DNA from: Spirodela intermedia | Lineage: Eukaryota > Streptophyta > Magnoliopsida > Alismatales > Araceae | NCBI GenBank assembly: GCA_902729315.2 | Contig: LR746276.1 | Location: 4,198,169-4,262,168 of the forward strand | Direction of reading: 5' to 3' | DNA: 64,000 nt | Program-made: the position numbers and the translations under genes | Shown: positions 2,450-61,215 of the stretch, in pieces | Layout: each line of letters opens with the position of its first letter | How positions within the stretch are numbered: the stretch's first letter is position 1 | Notes under the pieces: model-generated | Databases searched by the model: none | The model's input: only the letters and a program-made list of their open reading frames with translations | Told to the model about the DNA's origin: nothing

Positions 2450-4849
2450 ATGCATGGTAGAAGATCTTTGCATCCAAGGCTAGAAAATCCTTTCAAAAAT
2501 AAAAATCCGAAAGAAAAATTAATTTTGATGGATCCTGAAGGAAGTACAGGTCAAACTGAGAACAATCTTCTGGCCATGAAAAATCATTATATCCCTGATT
2601 CATTTCAAAGAGCATCTAATATTAGAGTCCCATTAGCACCCACTGTTAAATTCGAAATAAATGCAGGAATTTTTCAAATGCTCCCTAATTTTCATGGATT
2701 GCCTTTAAAGGAACCTCATCAGCACTTAGAAAAATTTCATATGGTCTGTGATTTAGTTAATCTCCCTCAAGTTACACCGGAAATTATTAAGATGAAATTA
2801 TTCCCTCATACACTTAGGGACAAAGCTAGTCATTGGCTATCCACATTAGATAGAGAATTAACTAGCTAGAAAGATATAGAACAGGTCTTTCTTCGAAAAT
2901 TTTATCCCTTAGGAAAAACTCAAAATATGAGAAAACATATATGGAGTTTTTCTCAAAGACCAGGAGAAACTTTGCATGAGACATGGGAAAAATTTAAAGA
3001 TTTACTTAGAAAGTGTCCTCATCATGCTATACCCAAGTGGTAGCTCAATAGAATTTTTTATGATGGATTATTAGAACAACATAGAAATATGGTTGATTCT
3101 ATATGTGGAGGAGCTTTTATGGAGAAAACTCCTGATGAGATTTACAATCTTTATGAGAATTTAAGTGAAAATTTGAGAGATCAAGCCTCTTTTGAATTAT
3201 ATGACAGGGATAAGAAGAGAGGAATTTATGAATTGCATCATGATGATGATTCTAAACTTAGAAATGAGGTTAATCAGATTAATCAAAAATTAGAAAAAAT
3301 TGATTTACTTATTGACAATATTAGAAAGCCTTTTAACCCTCAACTTAATTCGAATAGTACATGTCCTATATATGGTGAAAATGATTATTCTGAATTTCAA
3401 TGTTATAATTTAGATCAATCATTTCACCCTATGCAAGAACAAGTGCAAGTAGCTCACGGTTTTAATAGAAACAGGGAACCTTTTTCAAATTCTTATAATC
3501 CTAATTGGAGGAATAATTTTTCATGGAGAGACCCAAATAATATTCAAAATCCAGAAGCACTTAAACCCAATTCAAACTCGGAATTTCGTCCAAAACAAGA
3601 AAACAGATTTCAAAAAAATCAGTCCTCTCAAACCCAACCCGATACTATGGAAATGATGCAGCAAATGAGCCAAATGATGCAACAAACTATGAATCAAATG
3701 ATGCAGCACCAGAAACAAATTATAGAGGCCCTTGGGAATAAGAGAGAAGAGGGACAGCTACCTAGTCAGCCCATAGAAAATCCAGGGAACCGCGCAACAA
3801 TAGGATTTCAGCAAGGGGAGTCTAGTAGTATGAATCTAGGAAAAAACCCACGAAATGAAAATGTTAGGACAGTGAATGCATTAAGGAGTGGTAAGATCTT
3901 ACCTGATCCTTATCCCCAAACATTAGAAGAAAAAGAAAACGTGGACAACCCAAAACAAAATCAAATAGGAGTAGAAGAGGATTTTATAGATTCTACCAAG
4001 GAAATTTCGAAAGAGAGGACAACCATTCCATTTCCTAAAGCTCTAGAGCCTAGACAAAGAAAGAAAAAGGAACACAATGAAGAAATAAAGAAAATTTTAC
4101 AAGATGTGCAAATTAGTCTTCCTTTACTCACTGCCATTGAACATATTCCTGAATATGCTAGAGTTTTGAAAGAAATGTGTACACCAAAAAGGGCACCTAG
4201 AGTAGAAAAATTATCTATGCATGCTAGTGCATTATTATTAAATCAATTACCATATAAATTGAGAGATACAGGTGCCCCTTTAATTTCGTGTGATATTGGT
4301 GGATTCATTTTTCAGAATGCATTACTTGACACCGGTGCTAGTATTAATTTATTACCTGCAAGTATTTGCGATAAATTTAATATTTCTGATCTTAAACCTT
4401 CTACTGTTACCTTACAATTTGCTGATAGATCCATAAAACATCCTAAAGGTATTTTAGAAAATGTGATAGTGACAGTTAAAGGGTGTAAATTTCCAGCTGA
4501 TTTTGTAGTGCTGGAAATGGATTTTAATGGACAGTTTTATGATACACCAATCATCCTAGGGAGACCATTTTTGCATACAGCAAAGATGAATATTGATTTT
4601 CCCACAGGTATTGCAAAAATTTCATGTGGAGATCAATCAGTAGAAATTAAAATTTTTGAGGTACCAAATGATCTTAAGAAATCACAAGTATATGATTGTC
4701 ATACCATAGATCTTCTAGATGATTTTGATGATCCAGATGTTATTGATGACTGTGTGCTGGAAGAATTAGAGGAAATAGAGAATATAAATTTGGGAAAAAA
4801 GAAAGAGGAAGATCATCTGAAATTTACAGTTGAAACCTCTTCCCTCTAG
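2450..4849 (+). pseudogene. gag: gag-protease of element A, broken by two stops and a frameshift
   Basis: This region encodes the particle protein followed by an aspartic protease. The start chosen is the ATG at 2450 (MHGRRSLHP), which is also ATG in B, C and F. The first part runs to 2869, where the Trp codon after RELTS is TAG. A second stop replaces Gln in PKWQLN near 3041. From 3089 the frame is open to 4849 and contains the central gag (IYNLYENL, YELHHDDDS), a Met/Gln-rich stretch at about 3650-3720, and the protease near 4321-4600 with LLDTGAS and IILGRPFLH. The protease keeps its catalytic Asp, unlike the other copies. Compared with the other copies, extra bases near 4815-4830 push pol into another frame, so the family's single gag-pol frame is broken here. 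Confidence 0.88.
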
Positions 4850-7724
4850 TTTAAAATATATATTTTTGGAGGAAAATAATTCATTTCCTGTAATTATCGC
4901 AGCTGATTTGAGTGATGAACAAAAAGAAGAATTATTAGATGTACTTCGAAAAAATAAGAAGGCTATGGGCTGGAAAATGGACGATCCAAGGGGCATTGAT
5001 ATGAGTGTATGCATGCATAGTATATATCTAGAGGAGGGGGCCAGAACTAGCAGGGAACCACAACGAAGATTAAATCCTAACATGATGGAAATTGTAAAAA
5101 AAGAAATTTTAAAGTGGCTGGCTGCTGATATTATTTATCCTATTTCAGATAGCAAATGGGTTAGTCCTACACAAGTAGTGCCAAAACAATCAGGGATCAC
5201 GGTTATAAAAAACGAAAATGGGGATGAAATACAAACAAGATTAACTACCGGTTGGAGGGTTTGCATTGATTATAGAAAATTAAATTCAGTTACTAGAAAA
5301 GATCATTTTCCCCTACCATTTACTGATCAAATTCTAGAAAAATTAGCTGGAAAAAACTTTTTTTGTTTTCTCGATGGATACTCTGGTTATAATCAAATTT
5401 ATATAAACCCTTTAGATCAAGAAAAAACAACTTTCACTTGTCCATTTCGTACTTTTGCTTTTAAACGCATGCCTTTTGGTCTGTGTGATGCTCCAGCCAC
5501 ATTTCAAAGATGTATGCTGTCTATTTTTTCTGATATGATTGGAAAATGCATGGAAATTTTTATGGACGATTTTTCTGTTTTTCGTGAATCATTTGATGAA
5601 TGCTTAAATCATTTACAGCATGTACTTGAGAAATGCATAGAGAAAAAATTAGTTTTGAGTTGGGAGAAATCACATTTTATGGTTAAAGAGGGAGTTGTGT
5701 TGGGTCATATTGTGAGTGAAAGGGGTTTAGAGGTGGATAGAGCAAAAATTGATATTATATCTAAAATGAAACCTCCAAATTCAGTAAAACAGATTAGATC
5801 TTTCTTGGGTCATGCAGGTTATTATAGAAAATTTATTCAAGATTTTTCGAAGATTTCAAAACCTCTCACCATGCTATTATCTAAAGATGTGCCTTTTAAT
5901 TTTGATGAGAAATGTTTTGAGTCTTTTTTCGAAATAAAAAGATTACTTACTGAGGCACCCATTTTACAAGTTCCTGATTGGTCCCTTCCCTTTGAAATAA
6001 TGTGTGATGCATCCAATTATGCAATGGGGGCCGTTCTAGGACAAACAAAAGAGTCAAAACCCATAGTAATTTCATATGCTAGTAAAACTATATCTGATGC
6101 TCAATTAAATTATACCACGAATGAAAAAGAGTTGTTAGTTGTAGTATTTTCGTTAGAAAGGTTTAGATCATATATTTTGGGAGCTAAAATTATTATTTAT
6201 ACTGATCATGCAGCATTAAAATATCTGTTAAATAAGAAAGATGCAAAGCCACGTTTATTAAGATGGATTTTATTGTTGCAGGAATTTGACTTAGAAATAA
6301 AAGATAAAAAAGGTTTCGAGAATGCTATTGCTGACCATCTTTCTAGATTAAGTGACACAGGAATAAATGCAGCACCTTTACAAGATGCATTTCCAGATGA
6401 ACAATTGATGGCAGCTCAACATCAACCATCACCATGGTATGCACATATTGTAAATTTTCTGGTTTCTGGAAAAACTCCAGAACAGTGGGATAAGAACAGA
6501 AAACATCATTTCTTGTCTAAGATTAGAAATTATTTTTGGCATGATCCTGATTTATATTACTTGGGCAATGATCAAATTTTAAGGAGATGTGTTCCTGAAG
6601 AAGAATACCATAGCATTATTAACATGTGCCATTCATCTAATTGTGGAGGAGACTTCTCTGGACGAAAAACAGCTGCAAAAAATTTTCAGTGTGGTTTTTA
6701 TTGGCCTACAATCATTAGAGATTCTATAGAATTTAGTAGAACATGTATTTCATGCCAATCTATAGGTAACATGAGTAAAAAAGATGAAATGCCCATGAGT
6801 AACATGTTAGTAGTCGAAATTTTTGATGTATGGGGAATAGATTTCATGGGTCCCTTCCCATCAGCTGAAAAATATGAATATATTTTGCTTGCTATTGATT
6901 ATGTGTCGAAGTGGGTGGAAGCTATTCCTACTAGAACTAATGATCATAAAATCGTGATGAAATTTGTGCAGGAAAATATTTTTTCGAGATTTGGATGTCC
7001 TAGAGTGATTATTAGTGATGGAGGAACACATTTTACAAATAAAAATTTCAGAGAACTGTTGAAAAAGAATGGAGTACACCATAGAGTAGCCACTCCATAT
7101 CATCCCCAAACAAATGGGCAAGCTGAAGTAGCAAATAGGGAAATTCAGAGAATTTTGAGAAAAATAGTTAGACCAGATAGGAAAGATTGGCCCACAAAAT
7201 TACAAGATGCATTATGGGCTTATAGAACAGCTTATAAAAATCCCATAGGTATGTCCCCATTTCGTTTCATTTTTGGAAAGCCATGTCATCTTCCTGTGGA
7301 AATAGAGCATAAAGCATTATGGGCTATAAAAAATTTATGTATGGATGAAAAATCAGCTGGTGGGCATAGAATTTTTCAGCTACATGAACTAGAGGAGTTG
7401 AGGAATGAAGCTTATGAAAATCATAGAATATATAAAGAAAAAACTAAAACTTTTCATGATAAATATATTAGCAGAAAAAAAATTGATGTTGGACAAAAAG
7501 TGTGGTTATATGATTCTAGGCTGAAATTATTCCTAGGAAAATTAAAATCAAAATGGAAAGGGCCTTATGTGGTGGAAGAGACATATGATCATGGGGCTGT
7601 AATGATTAAAGATCCTAAAAGTGATCACAACTTTAAGGTAAATGGACAGCGGCTTAAACATTACATAGAACATGAACGCCTTGCAGAAAAAGAAATTTTA
7701 TTATTAAAAGAAATTCAAGAGTAA
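4830..7724 (+). CDS. pol: Pol of element A: reverse transcriptase, RNase H and integrase
   Basis: An uninterrupted frame of 964 codons; no independent start codon is implied, because pol is normally made as part of gag-pol. Order: a protease-RT linker; reverse transcriptase with the first catalytic Asp in [12 protein letters not shown] and the active-site FMDD; RNase H with [16 protein letters not shown] and [12 protein letters not shown]; an integrase zinc-binding region (CHSSNCGGD...CISC); the DDE core with [17 protein letters not shown] and [10 protein letters not shown]; and a basic C-terminal region ending near HYIEHERL. In the zinc finger the second His is replaced by Asp (GGD; other copies have GGH), which should weaken integrase. 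It ends just upstream of a conserved hairpin. This is the only pol in the window without a stop. Confidence 0.92.
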
Positions 7725-24985: not shown

Positions 24986-26046
24986 AAATAGATTCACAAT
25001 GAAATCATATTTGAAATAGATTCACAATGAAATCATCACCACAAAAGAATAAAATATTTCAATTTGTGATGAAGTTTACAATATTAGTTGACAATTCATT
25101 AAGCTTAAGTTTAGAAAAGAATATGACAACACATGGCAAGATTTGTAACTATAGTAAAAAAAACAACTATTAGGAAGCCAAAAATGTAGAATATAAAATC
25201 ATGCCCACCTCTCTTTTGGTTTCTCATGCTACCTTAATTGAATCAATAAGGCTCTTTACAAAAGTATCATGACTCTTAATAGACTTGTAAACTTATTTTA
25301 ATAGATATAATGTCTCCTTGGATTAATTTTCCTTTCTATGAATTTGGTGTAATAATTTTATTTTACATAATTTTTTTAAAAAATAATCATTTAAAAAATT
25401 ATCAAGATAAATTATGAAGATATAACTATTTTTTTAATTAATTTTTATTTCTTTAAAATTGATTCTCCTTATGTTTCATTTATAGAATTCTTTAGAAAAA
25501 GGTTTATGCATATTCAATAACAAACTAAATGGTTTTATGATGGTAGTTTCCTCTATAGAATCAACTCCTGATTTTTAGCTTAAATAAACTGAGAAAATAT
25601 CATTTTTAATCTGTAATATCTAAAACAATTCGAGATTTTCTTGGTTACCTTCGTTTTGAATTTTACTACCCTCAAGCCCCAATTGAACCATATTTCAATA
25701 TCTATAAGATCATTTTCATTTAATTCAAGAATTTAAGGTAAAGATTGGGTGCTAATACGAAAAACCTAGGAGATGCTTTTCATGGTTTCTCGCCAAATAT
25801 AGAACGTATATAACTCTCTTTCTAAGGAACTTGGTAGGAAACGTTTTCTTTAACTTAGAGATCAAATGAAAAGAATAATTTTTTTATCAATACTTTAGGT
25901 TTTCATCGTTATTTCTCAATGGAGAATTTAACCCAATATAATCCGGTCTAAATCATTATTCCACTACCATGTTTTTATTTCTTATCATTAAATTTCTTCC
26001 AAAATTTTCCCAAGCACGCCAAATCACCCGTCTCATCCAAAGTCGT
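24986..26046 (+). repeat. AT-rich dispersed repeat U, copy 1
   Basis: About 1.06 kb that recurs at 29830-31064 in the same orientation and at 60150-61215 in reverse. Shared marks include TTTGTGATGAAG near the start, GACAACACATGGC, AGGCTCTTTACAAAA, TTTTCCTTTCTAT and ATTTCTCAATGGA. It starts with a 23-bp tandem pair (24986-25008 and 25014-25036, core AATAGATTCACAATGAAATC). It has no coding frame and I do not recognise a transposon family. Confidence 0.7.
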
Positions 26047-26813
26047 AAGAAAATGTTTATTAGTACTTTTTTTATTATCTGAATGTTTAAAGGGTCTACC
26101 GCTCCAGGCTGAGCTCTACAGTCCAACTGTTCCACATATTTTCCTCCTGCTTTTCTCCCACTGTGCGAAGCGAAGCAATCAGCCGGAACTGCTGATCACC
26201 ATTGGCGCCGAGGCTGAGCAGAGAAGCATGAACAAGCGAAGAGACACAGAGAGAGACAGAGAGAGAGAGAGAGGGGTAGACCTTGAAGACAGGAAGGTTC
26301 CGGTCCGTGGTGGACGCCGTCGCCGTTGTCGGCGTCGGAGCCTGTACATCGTCATCGCCGGTGTCCACGCCGCCGTGCATCATCATGCTCCTGCCGTCAG
26401 GCCTTGGTCGACGAAGATTCCGGCTCCGATCATCAACTTCCTAGAATTCTTCGGGGCACCCAACTTCTGGTGACAACGGAAGACCGCCGGCGATACGCAT
26501 TTAACCAAACAGAGAAAATATGCAGACATGTTCCTCCGCCGACGAGGAGGAAGAAGAAGAAAACCGGCAGCTGCATCTATGACCAGGAAAGGAAAGCAAC
26601 TCAAGAAAACTCGGCCGATCGAAGAAAACTCGGAGTAAATATCCGACGGATCGACGACCGCAGAAGCGGAAAACGATTCGAGAAAAATGTCAGAGAAATC
26701 CATCATCGTGCATACAAGAGAAAGAAGAAGAAAACTCGGGCGGGCGGCGGGCTAGAAGGGGAGAACCGGGCTCTTCCCCGCCCCGTCTGCCCACCCGTGT
26801 TGTCCCCTGTACA
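26047..26813 (-). other. 3' flank of CDC20 copy 1 with a possible unidentified exon
   Basis: GC-rich sequence downstream of the CDC20 stop, matched almost base for base in copy 2 (59381-60149). On the minus strand, 26440-26282 could be an exon: acceptor TTCTAG at its start, donor AAG|GTCTAC at its end, 53 open codons containing GRSMMMHGGVDTGDDDVQ and TDRNLPVFK. A (GA)n tract lies at about 26249-26273. The 3' UTR of CDC20 should also lie here. I cannot identify the exon; copy 2 has lost one base in it. Confidence 0.35.
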
Positions 26814-28573
26814 TTACCTGATGCGGCTGAAGCTGGAGAATGGCTCTAGGTCCGGAGGGGGCTTCGGAGGCGACTTCTTCGTCGTCTCCGGCGATCCAAA
26901 GACGTTCCAGAACCTCAGCGTCTCGTCACCCGACACCGACGCCACCGTGCACCCGTCCGGGCTCTGCGAAGCCGATATCTCGCCGTCATACCAGCATTAT
27001 AGACAACAGCTGGGAATAAACGGACAGGATCTGGGGGGATTTTGGTCCATACCACGGCCGTGCACAAGACTCGGGAACTGTGGCCGGTGAGGTCGATAAT
27101 CTTCCTAAAAGAGGGGTACTTCCACAAAGTCAGCTGGTTCTGACCGAACCCATGGGAGCTTAGCAGCTCCTTCTCCTTCTTGCTCCACAGCAGGGAGCAG
27201 ACCTGGGACCCCGTGTCCACCGAGTCGAGGCAAGTGCCGTTCTCGGTGTTCCAGAGCTTGATACACCGGTCGTTGCCGCCGCCGCCGGAGGCCAGCAGGT
27301 TGCTCTGGAAGGGGCACCATGCGAGGGCCTTCACGGCGGAGGCATGCTTGTCGAACCTGTGGATCCAGGGACCTTGGGAGGTCCGCGGAGCAGTGGCCGT
27401 CGATGCCCTGCGCAGGTCCCAGATGTGGACTAGGTTGTCGTCGCCGCCGCTGGCCAGACGCCGGCCGGAACCAGACCACCTTAACCCGCAGACTTCTCCT
27501 CTGTGGCCTCTGTATGAGTGGACGACGTGAGACCTGATTCTCACGTCGTTGTTCACCACCTTGCCATCCTTCCCTCCCGTCGTCAGAATGTGATTGCTCC
27601 ATGAGAGCGATCCGACTCGAGAACGGTGTACACCTCTCAGAGTCCTCAGCTGCAGCGGCGGATAAACACAGAGGACGATTCTCGTCAGAAAAGGAAACCC
27701 TGAAATCCTCTAGGCAGGGAGGGAAGGAGGTCTGGCCACTTACCAGTCGCTGGGAGTCGGTATCCCACAGCTGGACGTCGGAGCCGTTCAGACCCAGTGC
27801 AAGGTACCGGCCATCTGGAGCCCAGGAGACGCTCGCTGCGGCTCCGAGGTCGTCCTCCGCCATCATCATCTCCAACGTGGAACCGTCGGTGCCGTTCCAC
27901 AGGTGGACGGTGCTGCCGAGGGCGATAGACAGGATGTTCCTGCTCCCCCAGTCCAGCACGTTAAGATAGTAGTCGTCGGTCATGTCCGGGGCGTCCAGGA
28001 TCCGATCTGCCGACCGGGAGATTTCTCTCGTCTGTTTCGTGGACTTGGGCTGGTGATCGAAGGAGACCTCCTCGGCCGTGGAGGAGGAAGCAGGGGGCCG
28101 CGCCTGGAAGGCCAGAATCCGATTTCTATTCGGGAGCAACCTCTCGGCCAGGAGTTTCCCGTAGGTCTGCCCCGGATGGGAGGCCAGGGCGGCGGCTTTC
28201 TCCTTCTCTTTCCTGGTTTGTGTCAGCAGGTAGAAGGCCATGTCGAAGTCCATTGCTGATCTGTTGGGGATAAATCGATCGCCCTGAATCGCCGAGATGA
28301 TGACGTTCAGAGAACGAGTAACTACGCAATTAGGAATACGAAGGAAACGTAATCTGCAGAAATCATGAATCTGGTGGCACTAGAAATCTAAATCGAAACC
28401 CTAAATGGTTTAGAATAAAGAACTGGGTCAATCCGTCGAGGGCTTACGCTGTGCTTGGAAACGCCATGCTGCCTCGAGATGAGTCTTGACTGACGGGCCT
28501 CCTGAATGGAGCTGCGGCTTATCGAAGATGATTCCTCTTCGCTGCAGCTCTTCAATCCCCAGGAAGCCATCAT
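26814..28573 (-). CDS. CDC20: CDC20, APC/C activator (copy 1, intact, four exons)
   Basis: CDC20 recruits substrates to the anaphase-promoting complex in mitosis and is held by the spindle checkpoint. My model joins 28573-28448, 28283-27744, 27649-27053 and 26963-26814 (126, 540, 597 and 150 nt), giving 470 aa plus a stop; plant CDC20 proteins are usually about 450-460 aa. All three introns (164, 94 and 89 nt) are GT-AG and phase 0. Visible: [10 protein letters not shown] at the start, C-box DRFIPNR at 44-50, RILAF at 97-101, LDAPD at 138-142, a WD40 propeller (VHLWN, VQLWD, VHIWD, IKLWN, LRFWN) and the APC/C-binding Ile-Arg tail at 469-470. No KEN box is seen. The start is the first ATG of the exon (28573); the next codon is also ATG. 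G/C-rich third positions contrast with the surroundings. The 60-aa frame starting at the same ATG is the unspliced read-through. Confidence 0.9.
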
Positions 28574-29190
28574 CGCCGCGTCCCAGGATCTGCGAAATCA
28601 GCAGAGAAAAGGACCACAAGGCAAGAGGAAAACCAGCCGCAGACGCGGCAGACCGGCAGGCCAACGAGAGGTGGGAGGCAAGTAAGAAAACAGAGGAAGA
28701 GAGAAATCTCTGCGCAAAGAGATCGTCACGATAGCCGGGAAAGAAAACCACCCGCAGACGTGAGCTGTAGAAGAACGAGAAACCAGGAAGAACACGCCAG
28801 CAGACCTGGAGATCTATTGACAGAGGAGATGTGGAAAAATCAAGAAAAACAAGAAATAAACTTTCCCGTCGACGGGAATAATCCGCACAAAACCAACCAA
28901 GAAAGAAGACCAGTCGCAGAAGCAAATCTACAGACTAACGAGACACGAGAAGCAAGAACAAAGATTCACGGGATAAGGGACTTCCCCCCGCTCAAAGGCC
29001 GTCACCGAAACGAAAGACGGCCGCAGACGGAGCAGACTCGCAGGCCAATCCAGAGCGACCTCCGGCAGGAATCAACCGCAAGAGATCGCAGCACCAAGAA
29101 GGAGTCACCAGAGAGGTAGAGAGAGCGAGCGAGCGAGAGCGAGGGAGGGGTAGACAGAGAAAGAGCGGGAGAGAATGAGAGAGATGACTG
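28574..29190 (-). other. 5' leader of CDC20 copy 1
   Basis: About 600 nt between the expected start site and ATG 28573, pyrimidine-rich on the coding strand with CTCGCTCGCTCG-type repeats. The sequence just before the ATG (TTTCTCTGCTGATTTCGCAG) looks like a 3' splice site, so part of the leader may be an intron. No donor can be assigned with confidence. Confidence 0.5.
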
Positions 29191-29201
29191 GACGGAATGG
29201 G

Positions 29202-29270
29202 CTATATATACGGCCAAGATTCAAAGGCGCGCCAAGGCGTACTTCCCGCCAACGGTCATCTTCATAACGG
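29202..29270 (-). promoter_or_regulatory. CDC20 copy 1 core promoter: TATA, E2F and MSA elements
   Basis: On the coding (minus) strand TATATATAG lies at 29210-29202. Upstream, TTCCCGCCAA (29243-29252, + strand) is an E2F consensus. Overlapping it, GCCAACGGTCA (29248-29258) matches 10 of 11 positions of the M-specific activator consensus YCYAACGGYYA bound by three-repeat MYB factors. A second AACGG core is at about 29266-29270. The set fits a G2/M-expressed gene. Motifs are seen; use is inferred. Confidence 0.7.
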
Positions 29271-29285
29271 CCCGCCTCTTTCTCT

Positions 29286-29829
29286 CTCTTTAGGCAGGGG
29301 TTCTTGGCCCATGAATTAAGCGAGCTTAACTATGATAAGCTCCACATTGATTCACCGGTTTTTGCGCCATTTCCCTAGACTACTTAGCATAGTAAAAGGC
29401 ACCACAAAATCCTCTTTCTTCGTGTTGATGTTGATGGAACTGATCGTTGTAAAACTCTTATTGGTGTATTCAAGCATATTGGTTACTTTAAACTTTTTTT
29501 ATTATGGGTGATTGATTAACCATTGTAAACTCTAGGATTAAAATTTTCGGTCTCTTTATTGAATTGAAACACAAGAGATTAACTAACTTGTTCCATGTTA
29601 AGCTCCAAATTGTTCCATATCTAATCCCCTAAGATCCTTAAATCTTAGTCTATTAATTATCTTTCCCCTTCCAAGCAAGGAAGGAGAGTTCTATAAAGAG
29701 TTCTCTATCAGATCGTGCAAAATTTAACAATTTATTTACTTTTAGATTGTTTCATTTCAACGATCTTTCAAACATTGTTGATTTGAGCTAGTACTGCAAG
29801 TGTGTAGCATTTGGGTTTTTTTAATTCTA
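29286..29829. other. Upstream flank of CDC20 copy 1
   Basis: AT-rich, no coding frame. It is collinear in reverse with about 56346-56870 upstream of copy 2. A piece of it (about 29654-29715) is also found at about 50879-50945 next to an LTR fragment. Confidence 0.6.
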
Positions 29830-50876: not shown

Positions 50877-53225
50877 AGTATCTTCTCCTTTCCAAGCAAA
50901 GAAGGAGAATTCCGAAGAGAGTTATCTATTAGTTCAAGGTGTTAATGTGAATATAGTGCAATGAATTAGAGATGATATATTACTTCTCAATAAAGTCAAT
51001 ATAAAGTTGCCAACTCAATTCAAAGAAAGATTGTCTCATAGTTACTCAATTCCTCCATAAGTATCTTGTAACATCAAGCTGGGGATTTGGTGACTATAGA
51101 AGCACTAAGATGAAACAAGTACATCTTCACCACTATGTCTTTGGTAGAAATATTAATTTATTCAATTGAGTACAGATATAATACATTCTACTAAGTCTAA
51201 CATAGAGTTGTGAATCTAGAAGAGACTAGCATGTTAATCTAGAGTCATAAATTTAAAGGTAATTTGAGTTGTCTTAGTCATATTTCTAACTAACCTAGCC
51301 TTAGTAGGTTATAATCTTGTGTGGTCAATAAAAACAATAAAACATTTGGTTACTTAAGTCTCCTGATGAGGTTATTGAAACTTTAGTGGATGTAGATGGC
51401 CTTAGTACATCCTTCACACTATGTTGTTGAAGTATTAAATCTACTTATGATGTTCCTTAAGTCTTTAAATTCAATATAAGTGACTGATAATGTTTTATTT
51501 TTATATAGTAGTTGGGATAAAATCAAAGTATATGTTGCATGAATTAACGTAAAATGTGAATTATTTATGTTAAAAAAATACTAGTATTGATTTGAGAGTG
51601 GTGTGATAAATTTATATTTAATTTACTAATTTTTATGATTTATGAGAAATGATGTATTTCTGATTTTTAATGCATCAGCTAACATGATTATCAAAGGTTT
51701 ATAATCTTGAGAATTTTTTTAAGAGTGATAGTAAATTACTTATGAAGTTAAAATTACAAAATGGATTCTTTTGAACTTTTTGAAGAATTTATGAATACAT
51801 TTTAAAGCCCTTTTAAACTAATTTAGAAATCATCAAAATAATGAGAAGAAAATTCAGCGATTCATGGCCACATAACCAGGAGGACTTGCCAAGAATTTAT
51901 TAGCCAAGTCAGCATTTTTGGTCTATGTCAACAAGTTGTGCCACGTCATTAATGTACATGTCATCTTCGATGCTCTATTTTTGGGTGGTGAAATAGATAG
52001 AGATAATTACAGACTCCTTGATGATTGTTGAGAGATTATTGTATGAAAATGAGAAGCAAGCTCTAGGAAAAAACACGTTCTATATGATGAAAGAAGAAGA
52101 TTGGCATAATTTTTAAGCTTTTTAGGTAGAGTTCTCTCTAGGTGGCAGGTGGAGACAAGCATAGAGAGACCTTGGACACTTACGAATTCAATTCCTTTTT
52201 TCATTGTATGTACTTTCTTTCTTTCTTAATTCATCATTTGGGTAATAGTCCAACAATGACATTAAGGCCTTTTTATCTATTTATTTACCAATTTTAGAAA
52301 ATTTCACATCCATTTTCAATACTTTGTTTTAAGATGACAGATGAATAGAGCAACATATGTTGTTTGCGAATTAGATTTTTGTTTCGATTTTTTTTTTTTT
52401 TTATCTTATCTTATTTCATCATTTGAGTGACATGTGGGGCATTTTATCCCACATCTTTATCGTGGCAGTACTTTGGTCCTAGGTGACAACCAAGGAGGAG
52501 ATCCTGCATTCATCTTTTTTTTTTAGTTTTTTCTTAAGCTTTTAATGATCCTAACTAAATTTAACTTTGTTAAGATCATTCACAGAGATTTGTTTTCATA
52601 GATTGGCTGGGTTTTATGGGGATTCAAATCGATAACATTTTCCTATTTTTCACCAGTAGAGTTGCTCTGCATGTAGATGATTTTAGATTTTACTTTTTTT
52701 CAGTAAATGTTTTCATGATTTTAGTTTCTCTCATGAAATTTTACTTAGTTAATATCATTTAGAGCAATTTATTTCAAAAAGTTACTTTTTTTTTTGTTAG
52801 AATTCGGCCTAAATCTATTTCCATTTCACTACTAATGAGGTTTCTCTATCCTTAGTCATATTTTCTCTCTCTTCCCTATTTTTCTCGATTTTAAGAGTAT
52901 TTTCTGTTTATTTTTATAATTTTATTTTATTTTTATTCGAAATATTTTACAATTCTTGAGTCATTCATTAATTCTGAACAAGAGAACACTTCAAAATTTG
53001 AAGACAGAGCTCAAGCAATTTAGAAGATTTAAAGTACGGAGAAAGGTTATTTAAATTTATTTTAATTTCAATAATTGTTTTACAAAAAAACTTCAAATTG
53101 AGATTGACGATCATTCAAGTGGACAACTTGAATTCAAGAAAAGTTACTTTTAATCATTACTTTGAATTCAGTTTATAAAACTTAATTTGACCATTTTATT
53201 TACAATCACCAAAGTAATATTAGTG
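50877..53225. other. AT-rich intergenic sequence, no gene seen
   Basis: The first ~65 bp match the CDC20 upstream flank (29654-29715). The rest holds no frame with recognisable motifs. There is a poly-T run at about 52386-52401. Short frames such as 52007-52204 (-) have no support. Confidence 0.5.
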
Positions 53226-53380
53226 ATTAAATTTAAGTAACCTTGAGGACATTATTTTAGCAAGGCAATTAGTTTTCATTGACCAAGCAAGAAAAGCCTA
53301 GTGTGTGAAGAGAATTGAGAAAAATATTAGGAAACTATTTGTGATCATGAAAACTCTTGTTCATCTCTCTATTCGTTTCT
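53226..53380. repeat. Fragment of repeat U
   Basis: AAGCCTAGTGTGTGAA followed by a TTCATCTCTCT stretch matches U copy 2 around 30132-30215. It ends at the junction with the CDC20-derived promoter. Confidence 0.5.
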
Positions 53381-54263
53381 CATAGTTAAGCTTGCTTAAT
53401 TGACGAGCCAAGAACAACTGCCTAAAGAGAGAGAAAGAGGCGGGCCGTTATGAAGATGACCGTTGGCGGGAAGTACGCCTTGGCGCTCCTTTGAATCTTG
53501 GCCCTGTATATACCCCATTCCGTCCAGTCATCTCTCTCATTCTCTCCCGCTCTTTCTCTGTCTACCGCTCCCTCGCTCTCGCTCGCTCGCTCTCTCTCCC
53601 TCTCTGGTGACTCCTTCTTGGTGCTGCGATCTCTTGCGGTTGATTCCTCCCGGAGGTCGCTCTGGATTGGCCTGCGAATCTGCTCCGTCGGCGGCCATCT
53701 TTCGTTTCGGTGACGGCCTTTGAGCGCGGGGAAGTCCCTTATCCCGTGCATCTTTGTTCTTGCTTCTCACGTCTCGTTAGTATGTAGATTTGCTTCTGCG
53801 ACTGGTCTTCTTTCTTGGTTGGTTTTGTGCGGATTATTCTCGTCGACGGGAAAGTCTATTTTCCTGTTTTTCTTGATTTTTCCACATCTCCTTTGTCAAT
53901 AGATCTCCAGGTCTGCTGGCGTGTTCTTCCTGGTTTCTCGTTCTTCTATAGCTCGCGTCTGCGGGTGGTTTTCTTTCCCGGCTATCGTGACGATCTCTTT
54001 GCGCAGAGATTTCTCTCTTCCTCTGTTTTCTTACTTGCCTCCCCACCTCTCGTTGGTCTGCCGGTCTGCCGCGTCTGCGGCTGGTTTTCCTCTTGGCTTG
54101 TGGTTGCAACTATCTATCTGTGCAGGAATTTGTCCTTTTCTCTGCTGATTTCGCAGATCCTGGGACGCGGCGATGATGGCTTCCTGGGGATTGAAGAGCT
54201 GCAGCGAAGAGGAATCATCTTCGATAAGCCGCAGCTCCATTCAGGAGGCCCGTCAGTTAAGAT
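53381..54263 (+). pseudogene. CDC20-derived left part: promoter, leader and first 30 codons
   Basis: Collinear with the promoter and leader of CDC20 copies 1 and 2. ATG at 54173 opens the same first exon ([10 protein letters not shown]), but after about 30 codons the sequence switches, at a short TTAAGA homology, to the reverse strand of exon 2, and TAG follows directly. It therefore encodes at most a 30-aa stub. It is listed separately from the inverted repeat because its promoter looks usable. Confidence 0.85.
53445..53512 (+). promoter_or_regulatory. Intact CDC20-type promoter in front of the inverted repeat
   Basis: CCGTTA near 53445, MSA core TGACCGTTGGC (53457-53467), E2F site TTGGCGGGAA (53463-53472) and TATATA (53507-53512), with nearly the same spacing as in CDC20 copy 2. 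Confidence 0.65.
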
Positions 54264-55200
54264 AGTACTCATCGGCCATGTCTGGGGCGAACATCATCTG
54301 ATTTGCCAACCGAGAGATCTTTCTCCTCTGCCTCGTGGAGTTGGTCTGGTGGTCGAAGGAGATCTCTTCGGCCGTGGAGGAGGAAGCAGCGGGCCGCGCC
54401 TGGAAGACCAGAATCCGAGTTCTTTCCGGGAGCAACCTCTCGGCCGGGAGTTTCCCGTGGGTCTGCCCCGGATGAGAGGCCATGGCCGCGTCTTTCTCCC
54501 TCTCCTTTCTTGTTTGTGTCAGCAGGTAGAAGGCCATGTCGAAGTCCATCGCGGATCTGTTGGGGATAAATCGATCGCCCTGCATGGCCGAGAAGATGAA
54601 GATCAGAGAACAACCAACTCCGCAACTAGGAACATGAGGGAAACTCAATCTGCAGAAACCATGAATCTGATGGCGCCGGAAATCTAAATCGGAACCCTAA
54701 ATGGTTTAGAATAAAGAACTGGGTCAATCCGTCGAGCGCTTACGCTGTGCTTGGAAACGCCATGCTGCCTCGAGATGAGTCTTGACTGACGGGCCTCCTG
54801 AATGGAGCTGCGGCTTATCGAAGATGATTCCTCTTCGCTGCAGCTCTTCAATCCCCAGGAAGCCATCATCGCCGCGTCCCAGGATCTGCGAAATCAGCAG
54901 AGAAAAGGACAAATTCCTGCACAGATAGATAGTTGCAACCACAAGCCAAGAGGAAAACCGGCCGCAGACGCGGCAGACCGGCAGACCAACGAGAGGTGGG
55001 GAGGCAAGTAAGAAAACAGAGGAAGAGAGAAATCTCTGCGCAAAGAGATCGTCACGATAGCCGGGAAAGAAAACCACCCGCAGACGCGAGCTATAGAGGA
55101 ACGAGAAACCAGGAAGAACACGCCAGCAGACCTGGAGATCTATTGACAAAGGAGATGTGGAAAAATCAAGAAAAACAGGAAAATAGACTTTCCCGTCGAC
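53842..55200. repeat. CDC20-derived 417-bp inverted repeat (hairpin-forming)
   Basis: Left arm about 53842-54258, right arm about 54783-55200, spacer 524 bp. Both arms end with GTCGAC on the outside and cover the second half of the CDC20 leader plus the first ~29 codons. I count about three differences between the arms, but eight or more between an arm and CDC20 copy 1. Both arms also carry 28 bp (TGCAACTATCTATCTGTGCA and 8 more) absent from both full CDC20 copies. Transcribed from the promoter at 53457-53512, the RNA would fold into a long, nearly perfect stem, a plausible Dicer-like substrate. Transcription is inferred. Confidence 0.88.
54260..55200 (-). pseudogene. CDC20-derived right part: truncated antisense gene without promoter
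   Basis: On the minus strand: leader from 55200, exon 1 intact at 54869-54744 ([10 protein letters not shown]...), intron 1, then exon 2 from 54579 to about 54260, ending after DEYYLN, about 107 codons into the exon. It keeps the C-box DRFIPNR. The WD40 repeats, promoter and distal exons are absent. Residues before DEYYLN (MMFAPDMA) differ from both copies 1 and 2, so it derives from a third, diverged CDC20 copy. Confidence 0.85.
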
Positions 55201-55202
55201 GA

Positions 55203-55735
55203 CATGAAATTGTCTTTATTTGTTAAGATCTACTTTTTCTGCTAAGATTAGTTAAATAGATAAAAAATCATTTTTCATCAAAAATATCTAAAACTGCTCG
55301 ACATGTTCTCAACTATTTCGATTTTAAATTTATTACCCACAAGCCCCTTTGCGACACCTTCCAGTATCTAGAATGCCATTTCTATTTGATTCAAGCATTT
55401 AAAGTGAAGATCGGATACGAATAGATGAAAAATCCAAAGATGCCTTTCATGGTTTCTCATCAATTCATTCTTATTTGATATGCCTCTATTTGCAGGAAAT
55501 TAGAAGGAAACCTTTTTGTTTAGTTTAGAGGTTACAAGAAAAACGTAAAAAGTTTACTATAAAATACTCAAGGTTCTCGTGGTCATTTCTCAATGGAAAA
55601 TTTAACACAATATAATCTGTCAAAATCGTTGTTCCAAAACAATCTTTGTTATTTCTCATCATTCCATTTACTGCAACATTTTCCCAAACAAGCTAGTTAA
55701 CCCATCTCATCCACTTCCTAAAACATGGAATAAAT
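55203..55735 (+). repeat. Repeat U, second half, plus orientation
   Basis: Starts at CATGAAATTGTCTTTATTTG, identical to the U start of that segment at 63938, and corresponds to about 30600-31060. Directly abuts the outer end of the inverted repeat. Confidence 0.65.
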
Positions 55736-56345
55736 TTTACAGAAATAAAATTTAATTTAAGATTATTTAGCACTTTCCTAATTGATTTAGATAATTTTTA
55801 TTAGATTAAATTCTTATTCTAACATCTATGAAAAAAAAATATTATAGTAAATCTATAGAAAGGAAAATTCACTCAAAGAGACCTCATATATATCTATTCA
55901 AATAAGCGTATTGTTCTATTAAGTGTCATGTTTGTTTTGTAAAGAGCCTTATTGATTTGATAAAGGCAGCATGAGGAACTAAAAGAGAGGTGAACATGAC
56001 CTTTTTTATGATCAAACTAGTATTTTCCTCAAATTATTCTCAATAGTCTTCACACACTAGGCTTATAGTGGTTTGGTCAAGCGAAATTACTTTCCTCATA
56101 TTATTCTCAATCCTTTATTTCCTTTGTCGGTTGAACTCCAATCTCCATATTCTACATTAAGGGCTGCCTAGTAGTTTTTAACATTAGTTACAAATCTCGC
56201 CATGTGTTGTCACATCAGTACCAAAATTGAAGCTTCATAAATTGTCAAATAATATTATAGCCTTCATCACAAATAGAAATATTTGATTTTTTATGTGGTG
56301 CTTATTCCATTGTGAATTTATTTCAAATATATTTCCAATGTATAC
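55736..56345 (-). repeat. Repeat U, first half, minus orientation
   Basis: Reverse complement of about 29830-30475, nearly base for base. Its junction with the plus-oriented second half at 55735/55736 marks an inversion breakpoint. Confidence 0.7.
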
Positions 56346-56880
56346 ACATTTCTATACTTGTGTATAGAACTAAAAAAACCCAAGTGCTACACACTTGCAG
56401 TACTAGCTCAAATCAACAATGTTTAAAAGATCGTTGAAATGAAACAATCTAAAAGTAAATAAATTGTTTAATTTTGCACGATCTGATAGAGAACTCTTTA
56501 TAGAACTCTCCTTCCTTGCTTGGAAGGGGAAAGATAATTAATAGACTAAGATTTAAGGATCTTAGGGGATTAGATATGGAACAATTTGGAGCTTAACATA
56601 GAACAAGTTAGTTAACCTCTTGTGTTTCAATTCAATAAAGAGACCAAAAATTATAATCCTAGAGTTTACAATGGTTAATCAATCACCCATAATAAAAAAC
56701 GTTTAAAGTAACCAATATGCTTGAATACACCAATAAGAGTTTTACAAGGATCAGTTCCATCAACATCAACACGAAGAAAGAGGATTTTGTGGTGCGTTTT
56801 ACTATGCTAAGTAGTATAGGGAAATGGCGCACAAACCGGTGAATCAATGTGGAGCTTATCATAGTTAAGCTCGCTTAATT
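56346..56880. other. Upstream flank of CDC20 copy 2
   Basis: AT-rich, reverse counterpart of about 29300-29829. No gene seen. Confidence 0.6.
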
Positions 56881-56923
56881 CATGAGCCAAGAACCCCTGC
56901 CTAAAGAGAGAGAAAGAGGCGGG

Positions 56924-56991
56924 CCGTTATGAAGATGACCGTTGGCGGGAAGTACGCCTTGGCGCGCCTTTGAATCTTGGCCGTATATATA
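56924..56991 (+). promoter_or_regulatory. CDC20 copy 2 core promoter: MSA, E2F, TATA
   Basis: CCGTTA near 56924, MSA TGACCGTTGGC 56936-56946, E2F TTGGCGGGAA 56942-56951, TATATATAG from 56984. Same as copy 1, so a transcript is still likely although the first exon is frameshifted. Confidence 0.65.
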
Positions 56992-57619
56992 GCCCATTCC
57001 GTCCAGTCATCTCTCTCATTCTCTCCCGCTCTTTCTCTGTCTACCGTTCCCTCGCTCTCGCTCGCTCGCTCTCTCTCCCTCTCTGGTGACTCCTTCTTGG
57101 TGCTGCGATCTCTTGCGGTTGATTCCTGCCGGAGGTCGCTCTGGATTGGCCTGCGAATCTGCTCCGTCTGCGGCCGTCTTTCGTTTCGGTGACGGCCTTT
57201 GAGCGCGGGGAAGTCCCTTATCCCGTGCATCTTTGTTCTTTCTTCTCGCGTCTCGTTAGTCTGTAGATTTGCTTCTGCGACTGGTCTTCTTTCTTGGTTG
57301 GTTTTGTGCGGATTATTCCCGTCGACGGGAAAGTCTATTTCTTGTTTTTCTTGATTTTTCCACATCTCCTTGTCAATAGATCTCCAGGTCTGCTGGCGTG
57401 TTCTTCCTGGTTTCTCGTTCTTCTACAGCTGACGTCTGCGGGTGGTTTTCTTTCCCGGCTATCCTGACGATCTCTTTGCGCAGAGATTTCTCTCTTCCTC
57501 TGTTTTCTTACTTGCCTCCCACCTCTCGTTGGTCTGCCGGTCTGCCGCGTCTGCGGCTGGTTTTCCTCTTGCCTTGTGGTCCTTTTCTCTGCTGATTTCG
57601 CAGATCCTGGGACGCGGCG

Positions 57620-59380
57620 ATGATGGCCTTCCTGGGGATTGAAGAGCTGCAGCGAAGAGGAATCATCTTCGATAAGCCGCAGCTCCATTCAGGAGGCCCG
57701 TCAGTTAAGACTCATCTCGAGGCAGCATGGCGTTTCCAAGCACAGCGTAAGCCCTCGACGGATTGACCCAGTTCTTTATTCTAAACCATTTAGGGTTTCG
57801 ATTTAGATTTCTGGTGCCACCAGATTCATGATTTCTGCAGATTACGTTTCCTTCGTATTCCTAATTGCGTAGTTAGTCGTTCTCTGAACGTCATCATCTC
57901 GGCGATTCAGGGCGATCGATTTATCCCCAACAGATCAGCAATGGACTTCGACATGGCCTTCTACCTGCTGACACAAACCAGGAAAGAGAAGGAGAAAGCC
58001 GCCGCCCTGGCCTCCCATCCGGGGCAGACCTACGGGAAACTCCTGGCCGAGAGGTTGCTCCCGAATAGAAATCGGATTCTGGCCTTCCAGGCGCGGCCCC
58101 CTGCTTCCTCCTCCACGGCCGAAGAGGTCTCCTTCGATCACCACCCCAAGTCCACGAAACAGACGAGAGAAATCTCCCGGTCGGCAGATCGGATGCTGTT
58201 AATCCCGGAAATGGCCGACGACTACTACCTTAACGTGCTGGACTGGGGGAGCAGGAACATCCTGTCTATCGCCCTCGGCCGCACCGTCCACCTGTGGAAC
58301 GGCACCGACGGTTCCACGTTGGAGATGATGATGGCGGAGGACGACCTCGGAGCCGCAGCGAGCGTCTCCTGGGCTCCAGATGGCCGGTACCTTGCACTGG
58401 GTCTGAACGGCTCCGACGTCCAGCTGTGGGATACCGACTCCCAGCGACTGGTAAGTGGCCAGACCTCCTTCCCTCCCTGCCTAGAGGATTTCAGGGTTTC
58501 CTTTTCTGACGAGAATCGTCCTCTGTGTTTATCCGCCGCTGCAGCTGAGGACTCTGAGAGGTGTACACCGTTCTCGAGTCGGATCGCTCTCATGGAGCAA
58601 TCACATTCTGACGACGGGAGGGAAGGATGGCAAGGTGGTGAACAACGACGTGAGAATCAGGTCTCACGTCGTCCACTCATACAGAGGCCACAGAGGAGAA
58701 GTCTGCGGGTTAAGGTGGTCTGGTTCCGGCCGGCGTCTGGCCAGCGGCGGCGACGACAACCTAGTCCACATCTGGGACCTGCGCAGGGCATCGACGGCCA
58801 CTGCTCCGCGGACCTCCCAAGGTCCCTGGATCCACAGGTTCGACAAGCATGCCTCCGCCGTGAAGGCCCTCGCATGGTGCCCCTTCCAGAGCAACCTGCT
58901 GGCCTCCGGCGGCGGCGGCAACGACCGGTGTATCAAGCTCTGGAACACCGAGAACGGCACTTGCCTCGACTCGGTGGACACGGGGTCCCAGGTCTGCTCC
59001 CTGCTGTGGAGCAAGAAGGAGAAGGAGCTGCTAAGCTCCCATGGGTTCGGTCAGAACCAGCTGACTTTGTGGAAGTACCCCTCTTTTAGGAAGATTATCG
59101 ACCTCACCGGCCACAGTTCCCAAGTCTTGTGCACGGCCGTGGTATGGACCAAAATCCCCCCAGATCCTGTCGGTTTATTCCCAGCTGTTGTCTATAATGC
59201 TGGTATGACGGCGAGATATCGGCTTCGCAGAGCCCGGACGGGTGCACGGTGGCGTCGGTGTCGGGTGACGAGACGCTGAGGTTCTGGAACGTCTTTGGAT
59301 CGCCGGAGACGACGAGGAGGTCGCCTCCGAAGCCCCCTCCGGACCTAGAGCAATTCTCCAGCTTCAGCCGCATCAGGTAA
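57620..59380 (+). pseudogene. CDC20: CDC20 copy 2, first exon frameshifted
   Basis: Same four-exon structure as copy 1: 57620-57746, 57911-58450, 58545-59141 and 59231-59380, with GT-AG introns at the same sites. One extra C (GATGGCCTTCC at about 57627) shifts exon 1, so the normal N-terminus cannot be joined to exon 2. The first in-frame ATG afterwards (57941) would give a protein starting at [10 protein letters not shown], lacking the C-box needed to activate the APC/C. The WD40 exons are open and the Ile-Arg tail is kept. Other changes: LDAPD reads LLIPE, and SSR before VLCTA reads SSQ. It may be a young pseudogene, or make an N-truncated, possibly interfering protein. The sequencing error alternative should be kept in mind. 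Confidence 0.82.
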
Positions 59381-59914
59381 TGTACAGGGGACAACAAGGG
59401 TGGGCAGACGGGGCGGGGAAGAGCCCGGTTCTCCCCTTCTAGCCCGCCGCCCGCCCGAGTTTTCTTCTTCTTTCTCTTGTATGCACGATGATGGATTTCT
59501 CTGACATTTTTCTCGAATCGTTTTCCGCTTCTGCGGTCGTCGATCCGTCGGATATTTACTCCGAGTTTTCTTCGATCGGCCGAGTTTTCTTGAGTTGCTT
59601 TCCTTTCCTGGTCATAGATGCAGCTGCCGGTTTTCTTCTTCTTCCTCCTCGTCGGCGGAGGAACATGTCTGCATATTTTCTCTGTTTGGTTAAATGCGTA
59701 TCGCCGGCGGTCTTCCGTTGTCACCAGAAGTTGGGTGCCCCGAAGAATTCTAGGAAGTTGATGATCGGAGCGGAATCTTCGTCGACCAAGGCCTGACGGC
59801 AGGAGCATGATGATGCACGGCGGCGTGGACACCGGCGATGACTATGTACAGGCTCCGACGCCGACAACGGTGACGACGTCCACCATGGACCGGAACCTTC
59901 CTGTCTTCAAGGTC

Positions 59915-59951
<37 letters not shown>

Positions 59952-60149
59952 CTCTTCGCCTGTTCATGCTTCTCTGCTCAGCCTCGGCGCCAACGGTGAT
60001 CAGCAGTTCCGGCTGATTGCTTCGCTTCGCACAGTGGGAGAAAAGCAGGAGGAAAATATGTGGAACAATTGGACTGTAGAGCTCAGCCTGGAGCGATTTT
60101 CTTCAGATAATAAAAAAAGTACTAATAAACATTTTCTTACGACTTTGGA
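59381..60149 (+). other. 3' flank of CDC20 copy 2
   Basis: Counterpart of 26047-26813, including the possible exon after TTCTAG at 59753 (here one base is lost, GAGCGG for GAGCCGG) and a (TC)n tract at about 59919-59947, longer and purer than in copy 1. Confidence 0.45.
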
Positions 60150-61215
60150 TGAGACGAGTGATTTGGCGTGCTTGGGAAATTTTGGAATAAATTTAATGAT
60201 AAGAAATAAAAACATGGTAGTGGAATAATGATTTAGACCGGATTATATTGGGTTAAATTCTCCATTGAGAAATAACGATGAAAACCTAAAGTATTGATAA
60301 AAAAAATTATTCTTTTCATTTGACCTCTAAGTTAAAGAAAACGTTTCCTACCAAGTTCCTTAGAAAGAGAGTTATATACATTCTATATTTGGCGAAAACC
60401 ATGAAAAGCATCTCCTAGTTTTTCCTTATAAGCACCCAATCTTTACCTTAAATTCTTGAATTAAATGAAAATGGTCTTATAGATATTGAAATATGGTTCA
60501 ACTGGGGCTTGAGGGTAATAAAATTCAAAACGAAGGTAACCAAGAAAATCTCGAATTGTTTTAGATATTACAGATTAAAAATGATATTTTCTCAGTTTAT
60601 TTAAGCTAAAAATAAGGAGTTGATGCTATAGAGGAAACTACCATCATAAAACCATTTAGTTTGTTACTGAATATGCATAAACCTTTTTTAAAAAAAATCC
60701 TATAAATGAAAAATAAGGGGAATCAATTTTAAATAAATAAAACTTAACTAAAAAATTAGTTATATCTTCATAATTTATCTTGATAATTTTTTAAATGATT
60801 ATTTTCGAAAAACTTTATTTGAAATAAAATTGTTACACCAAATTTAGAGAAAGGAAAATTAACCCAAGGAGACATTATATCCATTAAAATAAGTTTACGA
60901 GTCTATTAAGAGTCATGATACTTTTTTAAAGAGCCTTATTGATTCAATTAAGGTAGCATGAGAAACCAAAAGAGAGGTGGGCATGATTTTATATCCTGCA
61001 TTTTTGGCTTCCTGATAGTTATTTTTTTACTATAGTTACAAATCTTGCCATGTGTTGTCATATTCTTTTCTAAACTTAAGCTTAATGAATTGTCCGACTA
61101 ATATTGTAAACTTCATCACAAATTGAAATATTTTATTCTTTTGTGGTGCTCATTCCATTGTGAATCTATTTCAAATATATTTCCAATGTGTACACAAGGC
61201 TATACTTGTGATAGA
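60150..61215 (-). repeat. Repeat U, copy 4
   Basis: Reverse complement of 24986-26046 and very close to it. Past the point where copy 1 is cut by an LTR it continues through TATACTTGTG, as the other U copies do. Confidence 0.7.

Follow-up and report, generated by a model that had tools for sequence, protein, structure and literature searches.

What is the function of a fragment of a CDC20 gene that lies inverted behind a CDC20 promoter, and how did it arise? The question is raised by a stretch of 64,000 nucleotides from the 136.5-Mb genome of the duckweed Spirodela intermedia (C13:4198169-4262168, hereafter the window). A preliminary description had placed an inverted repeat of CDC20 leader and exon 1 here, with arms of 417 bp and about three differences between them, and had proposed that it could make small interfering RNAs (siRNAs) against CDC20. 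Sequence comparison within the window shows that the CDC20-derived stretch runs from 53377 to 55202 and that the repeat is real, with arms of 423 bp rather than 417 (3 mismatches, 0 gaps). The left, sense arm (53840..54262, plus strand) consists of 333 nt of CDC20 leader and 90 nt of exon 1 (54173..54262, with the ATG at 54173), and the right, antisense arm (54780..55202, minus strand) derives from a 5'-truncated CDC20. Between them lies a loop of 517 bp (54263..54779, minus strand). The sense half meets the inverted half at the rearrangement junction GTTAAGA (54256..54262), and the frame opened at the ATG runs into a stop shortly beyond it. From the junction onwards the sequence is antisense to CDC20: 324 nt of exon 2 (54256-54579, loop and junction together, in agreement with the roughly 320 nt first described), 164 nt of intron 1 (54580-54743) and the last 36 nt of exon 1 (54744-54779).

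At all three positions where the arms differ (among them 53944/55098 and 54082/54960), the left arm has T and the right arm C, so that the RNA pairs through each of them as G.U. In the predicted RNA fold, which had been suggested as a check, 423 of the 423 arm bases are paired with their mirror base. A search of the window for inverted repeats with a seed of 20, arms of 150 nt or more and spacers no longer than 3 kb listed 11, of which the CDC20 hairpin is the most nearly perfect (99%, against 97% for the next ones). The assembly contains this CDC20-derived stretch three times, with 99.7-100% identity over 1,826 aligned bases, which excludes a chance match. That the anatomy of the hairpin is real is nearly certain. 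A search against Rfam at the gathering score matched no RNA family in 52500-56500.

Other repeated elements surround the hairpin. The outer end of its right arm is a truncation point that is common to C13:4268738. It is followed by a 514-bp repeat (55203..55716), which adjoins the truncated copy, occurs identically beside a truncated gene further along the contig (t4269) and has a related copy in the middle of a CDC20 palindrome. AATAAA sites stand at 55729 and 55744. Stretches of about 470 bp that are 72-73% alike (55245-55713, 25577-26039 and 60146-60607) adjoin the hairpin and the CDC20 copies. Ty3/gypsy-type gag-pol frames occupy 3089-7724 (a weak protease match, reverse transcriptase, RNase H and integrase domains), with apparent decayed relatives elsewhere in the window. 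Two further inverted repeats, 46720-47509/49041-49830 (790 bp, 93%) and 38740-39018/39522-39800 (279 bp, 97%), lie in retroelement-rich parts.

Upstream of the left arm, the remainder of the left half (53377..53839, plus strand) contains the CDC20 promoter and the start of the leader. Promoter-type motifs are indeed found here, as reported earlier (E2F, MSA and TATA elements): CCGTT, the MSA core in reverse, at 53445 and 53460, GGCGGGAA at 53465 and TATATA at 53507. Identical motifs precede the neighbouring CDC20 copy 2. Only 2 substitutions and a single 29-bp indel separate the left half, over its full 886 bp, from an intact gene locus (C13:4348875-4349731, c4349). Judged by its motifs and its near identity to the 5' end of this intact gene, the promoter is placed such that it would read through both arms.

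The part of the arms that is retained in a mature messenger may nevertheless be small. At 54156/54157 there is a plausible splice acceptor, which points to an intron in the leader; no donor for it was found. Such a 5'-UTR intron may cover about 317 of the 423 arm bases, leaving about 106 nt in common with the mature mRNA. A 29-bp leader segment with GTGCAG (54103-54131) could influence this splicing: it is present in all six hairpin arms, in t4269 and in array genes 4023, 4033 and 3988, and absent from the remaining 11 of the 15 array genes compared. Outside the array, 61 bp at C10:2949658-2949718 are 89% like the leader arm, on a contig for which no other CDC20 match is listed. This site was discarded: it has no exact 21-mer in common with the arm, though 18 positions match within 2 mismatches.

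A whole-genome search with 428 bases of the loop gave 21 matches, and these 21 candidates comprise the three hairpins, 17 CDC20 genes of C13 and a single C4 gene. All but the last fall in a cluster of 0.36 Mb (C13:3988296-4351469), where the hairpin units lie at 4085637, 4167905 and 4251545, about 83 kb apart and with few private differences. The single hairpin first described is thus one part of a larger array with three hairpins, 17 genes, two parent loci and a diverged loop. Sixteen of the 17 array genes have a 1,413-bp coding sequence with four exons and an intact 470-codon frame. They include copy 1 (26744..29344, minus strand; C13:4224912-4227512), whose protein scores 389 bits against the CDC20/Fizzy propeller (Pfam PF24807) and has entries named cell division cycle protein 20 homolog as its best solved relatives, and also t4269, which starts within the leader and hence has no promoter. 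The sole broken frame is that of copy 2 (56850..59450, plus strand; C13:4255018-4257618), with a frameshift in exon 1. Six convergent palindromic pairs account for 12 of the 17 genes and lie inside larger duplicated blocks (at least 4.5 kb at 95% identity or more, up to 99.7%), as seen in a block comparison that took in the stretches of 15 of the 17.

Among the 16 intact genes the mean pN is 0.0083 and the mean pS 0.0099, hence the array copies evolve almost unconstrained among themselves and their intact frames are not taken as proof of function. Compared with the C4 gene, constraint is visible (dN 0.225, dS 0.764). Counts of CDC20 in seven plants are given as 3-6 copies each (PMC3095333), against which a cluster of 17 is unusual even if the hairpin is silent. 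Records for S. intermedia also include a cluster of 19 array-type CDC20 proteins on a contig of 6,676,301 bases (C13 has 6,666,668), a hint that the array may be present in another assembly too; two clones are reported as assembled, one with PacBio and one with Nanopore/Illumina (PMC7645714). The main text of that genome paper contains neither 'CDC20' nor 'small RNA', and the open-licence literature, judged by titles and abstracts, gave a survey of cell-cycle genes and a study of land-plant APC genes but nothing on the number of CDC20 copies, or on hairpins of this gene, in a duckweed.

With the array in hand, both halves of the hairpin can be traced. The left half and 3.9 kb of upstream flank are colinear with the intact gene locus at 4345001-4349731 (4.7 kb, 98.4%; 4345001 being the start of the compared stretch). 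The right half and its flank mirror 4262749-4269684 over 6.9 kb (98.9%), where t4269 adjoins a palindromic gene pair. The left gene is broken in exon 1 and the right gene in exon 2, and the junction shows a microhomology of 2 perfect nucleotides, or 6 of 7 when c4349, the nearest left parent, is considered. Given these correspondences the hairpin is very probably the junction of two different CDC20 loci, and a deletion between two convergent copies would be the simplest route to it. A local fold-back duplication was rejected as origin, since each half has a locus of its own as its source and the loop derives from neither of the two. Of the proposed resemblance to the inverted-duplication stage of MIRNA birth, the inverted-repeat geometry stands, while the local inverted duplication gives way to a joining of two loci.

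The near-identity of the arms does not call for a special explanation either. The left arm in the window differs from c4349 by 2 substitutions and the 29-bp indel, each of the three right arms is 0-1 substitutions away from t4269 (1 in the window copy), and c4349 and t4269 are themselves only 2 substitutions and the 29-bp indel apart. Gene conversion from arm to arm is not needed, as the parents were already near-identical. Moreover, the drop in likeness to t4269 does not coincide with the arm edge: it comes only after about 100 nt of loop, a stretch with 2 differences. A conversion that brought the 29 bp into the left arm may still have taken place. By comparison with the parent copies, apparently one of the three arm differences arose after the junction, and the arms thus give no sign of selection.

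The loop has a different history. Spacer and right arm match t4269 almost perfectly over about 1.45 kb, with one difference in the 423-bp arm and none in the 514-bp repeat. Beyond the first 100 nt of the loop the likeness falls, and loop and junction together hold 61 differences from t4269 in 524 bases. Compared with 15 array genes the same region shows 58-62 differences in 524 bases (about 11.5% diverged), and over 428 bases the loop is 86-87% identical to all 17 (87% to the two outside the set of 15). The three loops are identical to one another. In their exon 2 part the reading frame is still open (dN 0.113 and dS 0.214 against the array consensus). Of the 40 positions at which loop and array differ, 12 have the C4 state in the loop, 18 have it in the array and 10 have it in neither. 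Methylation decay was rejected as the source of this divergence, because C>T or G>A changes (12 of 40) are not in excess of the reverse (12 of 40). The whole-genome search found no closer relative of the fragment 54263-54690. Taken together, these comparisons point to a right parent that was probably a chimera, its downstream part coming from a third CDC20 lineage of which only the hairpin loops are left.

Which messengers could the hairpin reach? Of the 403 21-mers in the left arm, between 205 and 376 occur exactly in each of the 17 array genes and none in the canonical CDC20 on C4. For the 86 that start within the probable mRNA part, each array gene matches 60-81. Of the 497 21-mers of the loop, which is predicted to be single-stranded, 73-79 recur in each array gene and 2 in the C4 gene. 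Copy 1, originally singled out as the likely target, is accordingly a possible target that does not stand alone: every array gene matches, and the arms exclude the C4 gene.

Processing of the duplex would depend on the dicers available. We joined nearby domains as one gene and named each gene after the best-matching solved plant dicer, which gave a DCL1-like locus at C2:4948385 (4.95 Mb), a DCL4-like locus at C6:5453433 (5.45-5.48 Mb) and a DCL3-like locus at C6:607138 (0.61 Mb). In the latter, the dimerisation piece is closest to DCL1 and both RNase III pieces to DCL3. No fourth locus, which would be DCL2, was found in the genome domain search; split or diverged domains could escape such a search, and no solved DCL2 was among the hits. 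In other systems DCL2 is needed for strong secondary siRNAs. The link between DCL2, 22-nt siRNAs and amplification agrees with PMC6119189. In the sister species S. polyrhiza, DCL2 is described as missing, DCL3 as present with no detected expression, and DCL4 as expressed (PMC10989885). As no DCL2 was found, the prediction for S. intermedia is primary 21-nt siRNAs without amplification driven by 22-nt species. This does not fit an earlier finding, cited and disputed in PMC10989885, that the small RNAs of one S. polyrhiza line were mostly 22 nt long.

The hairpin is an inverted repeat of a gene family with a promoter in place and with arms that match intact members, and on these sequence features it is probably a new member of the class of loci exemplified by Lgc1 and the chalcone synthase (CHS) repeats. 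It lacks the usual form of a young MIRNA gene: such genes have a short imperfect foldback with one precise miRNA/miRNA* duplex, and here the stem is 423 bp long, near-perfect and without a match in Rfam. The inverted-duplication model for plant MIRNA origin has the hairpin formed from a copy of the gene that it would come to target (PMC3237417). The CDC20 hairpin also derives from its would-be target family, although it is much longer and nearly perfect, joins two loci and carries a loop that is probably from a third, diverged CDC20.

In rice Lgc1, a deletion between the family members GluB4 and GluB5 is reported to leave a silencing tail-to-tail inverted repeat (PMC10647759). The CDC20 hairpin shares this geometry; however, Lgc1 is a product of mutation breeding with a reported silencing effect, whereas the CDC20 junction is natural, exists in three copies, holds only 5' gene parts and is merely a candidate for silencing. 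At the soybean I locus (CHS1-3-4 cluster, GmIRCHS), inverted repeats are described as yielding siRNAs against the family (PMC3804491, PMC13051633). The CDC20 hairpin too is an inverted repeat inside a gene cluster. The two differ in that the soybean locus proceeds from primary to secondary siRNA amplification with 22-nt siRNAs early on, while no DCL2 locus was found in S. intermedia, and in that the candidate target here is a cell-cycle gene. Among animals, the Drosophila hpRNA suppressors (Nmy against Dox/Dxl) are reported as hairpins from a young amplified family (PMC12941216). The CDC20 hairpin is likewise from such a family and is predicted to silence it. A suppressor of this kind acts on a selfish family that distorts transmission, and the CDC20 hairpin further differs in that it sits within the array it would silence.

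Weighing these results, we consider siRNA production with selective silencing of the array plausible, though our support for it is tentative. In its favour count the unbroken pairing, the intact promoter motifs, the identified parents of both halves, the three copies, the 21-mer matches, the DCL4-like locus and the known silencing repeats; against it count the possible leader intron, the near-neutral array, the missing sign of selection, the two loop 21-mers in common with the C4 gene, the DCL2 that was not found and the disputed 22-nt report, as well as the Ty3/gypsy-rich region, in which the locus may be silent. Nearly as likely is an inert rearrangement scar that makes no siRNA of consequence and was passively tripled by the segmental duplications that multiplied CDC20. 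The three hairpins sit in duplicated blocks spaced by about 83 kb, two related palindromic gene pairs (4023/4033 and 4310/4319) exist without a hairpin, the arms show no signal of selection, the array genes change near-neutrally, and the surroundings are rich in retroelements. Harder to reconcile with a scar are the unbroken promoter, nearly identical to that of the intact gene, and the two plant gene-family inverted repeats known to silence.

That the hairpin acts on the DNA of the array, by way of 24-nt siRNAs and methylation instead of mRNA cutting, appears improbable. A DCL3-like locus is present and the arms are mostly leader, adjoining the promoter; yet in the sister species 24-nt siRNAs are reported as scarce and expression of DCL3, AGO4, NRPD1 and NRPE1 as undetected (PMC10989885), and the loop lacks the C-to-T excess relative to the array consensus (12/40 against 12/40). 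Hence 24-nt siRNAs would not be the expected product of the hairpin. Although the region is highly repetitive, it is very improbable that the hairpin is an assembly artefact caused by a chimeric or fold-back long read. Fold-back artefacts mirror one locus on itself; here each half has its own, distinguishable parent locus, the loop agrees with neither of these, and a few private bases set the hairpins apart from one another.

Returning to silencing by siRNAs, the preferred reading would run as follows. As the sequence shows, a rearrangement in the young CDC20 array, possibly a single deletion, joined a promoter, leader and the first 90 coding bases to an inverted, 5'-truncated CDC20, leaving out the 3' ends of both parent genes, and the junction was copied to three sites along with segments of about 83 kb. 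From the inherited CDC20 promoter an RNA of sense arm, loop and antisense arm would be transcribed and, according to the computed fold, form a 423-bp duplex. DCL4 would dice this into 21-nt siRNAs against the mRNAs of the amplified array, acting in the very dividing cells where these mRNAs are made, and the canonical C4 gene would be spared, as computed from the lack of any 21-mer in common with the arms.

It might further be argued that array genes and hairpins, multiplied together under the same cell-cycle promoter, amount to an amplification with its own brake, which we regard as unlikely. If true, double-stranded RNA made at each division would cap the extra CDC20 dosage while the canonical gene escapes, and with no DCL2 found, and hence no siRNA amplification expected, the result would be a proportional, cell-autonomous and self-limiting dosage circuit. 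If the hairpin is transcribed, it would be a natural RNAi locus that targets an anaphase-promoting complex activator, seen at a young age while both of its parents can still be recognised. Its host divides fast, and the dicers found there, with no DCL2 among them, predict that siRNAs would be limited to primary ones of 21 nt. The hairpin would thereby offer a case for how young gene amplifications and the hairpins derived from them evolve together.
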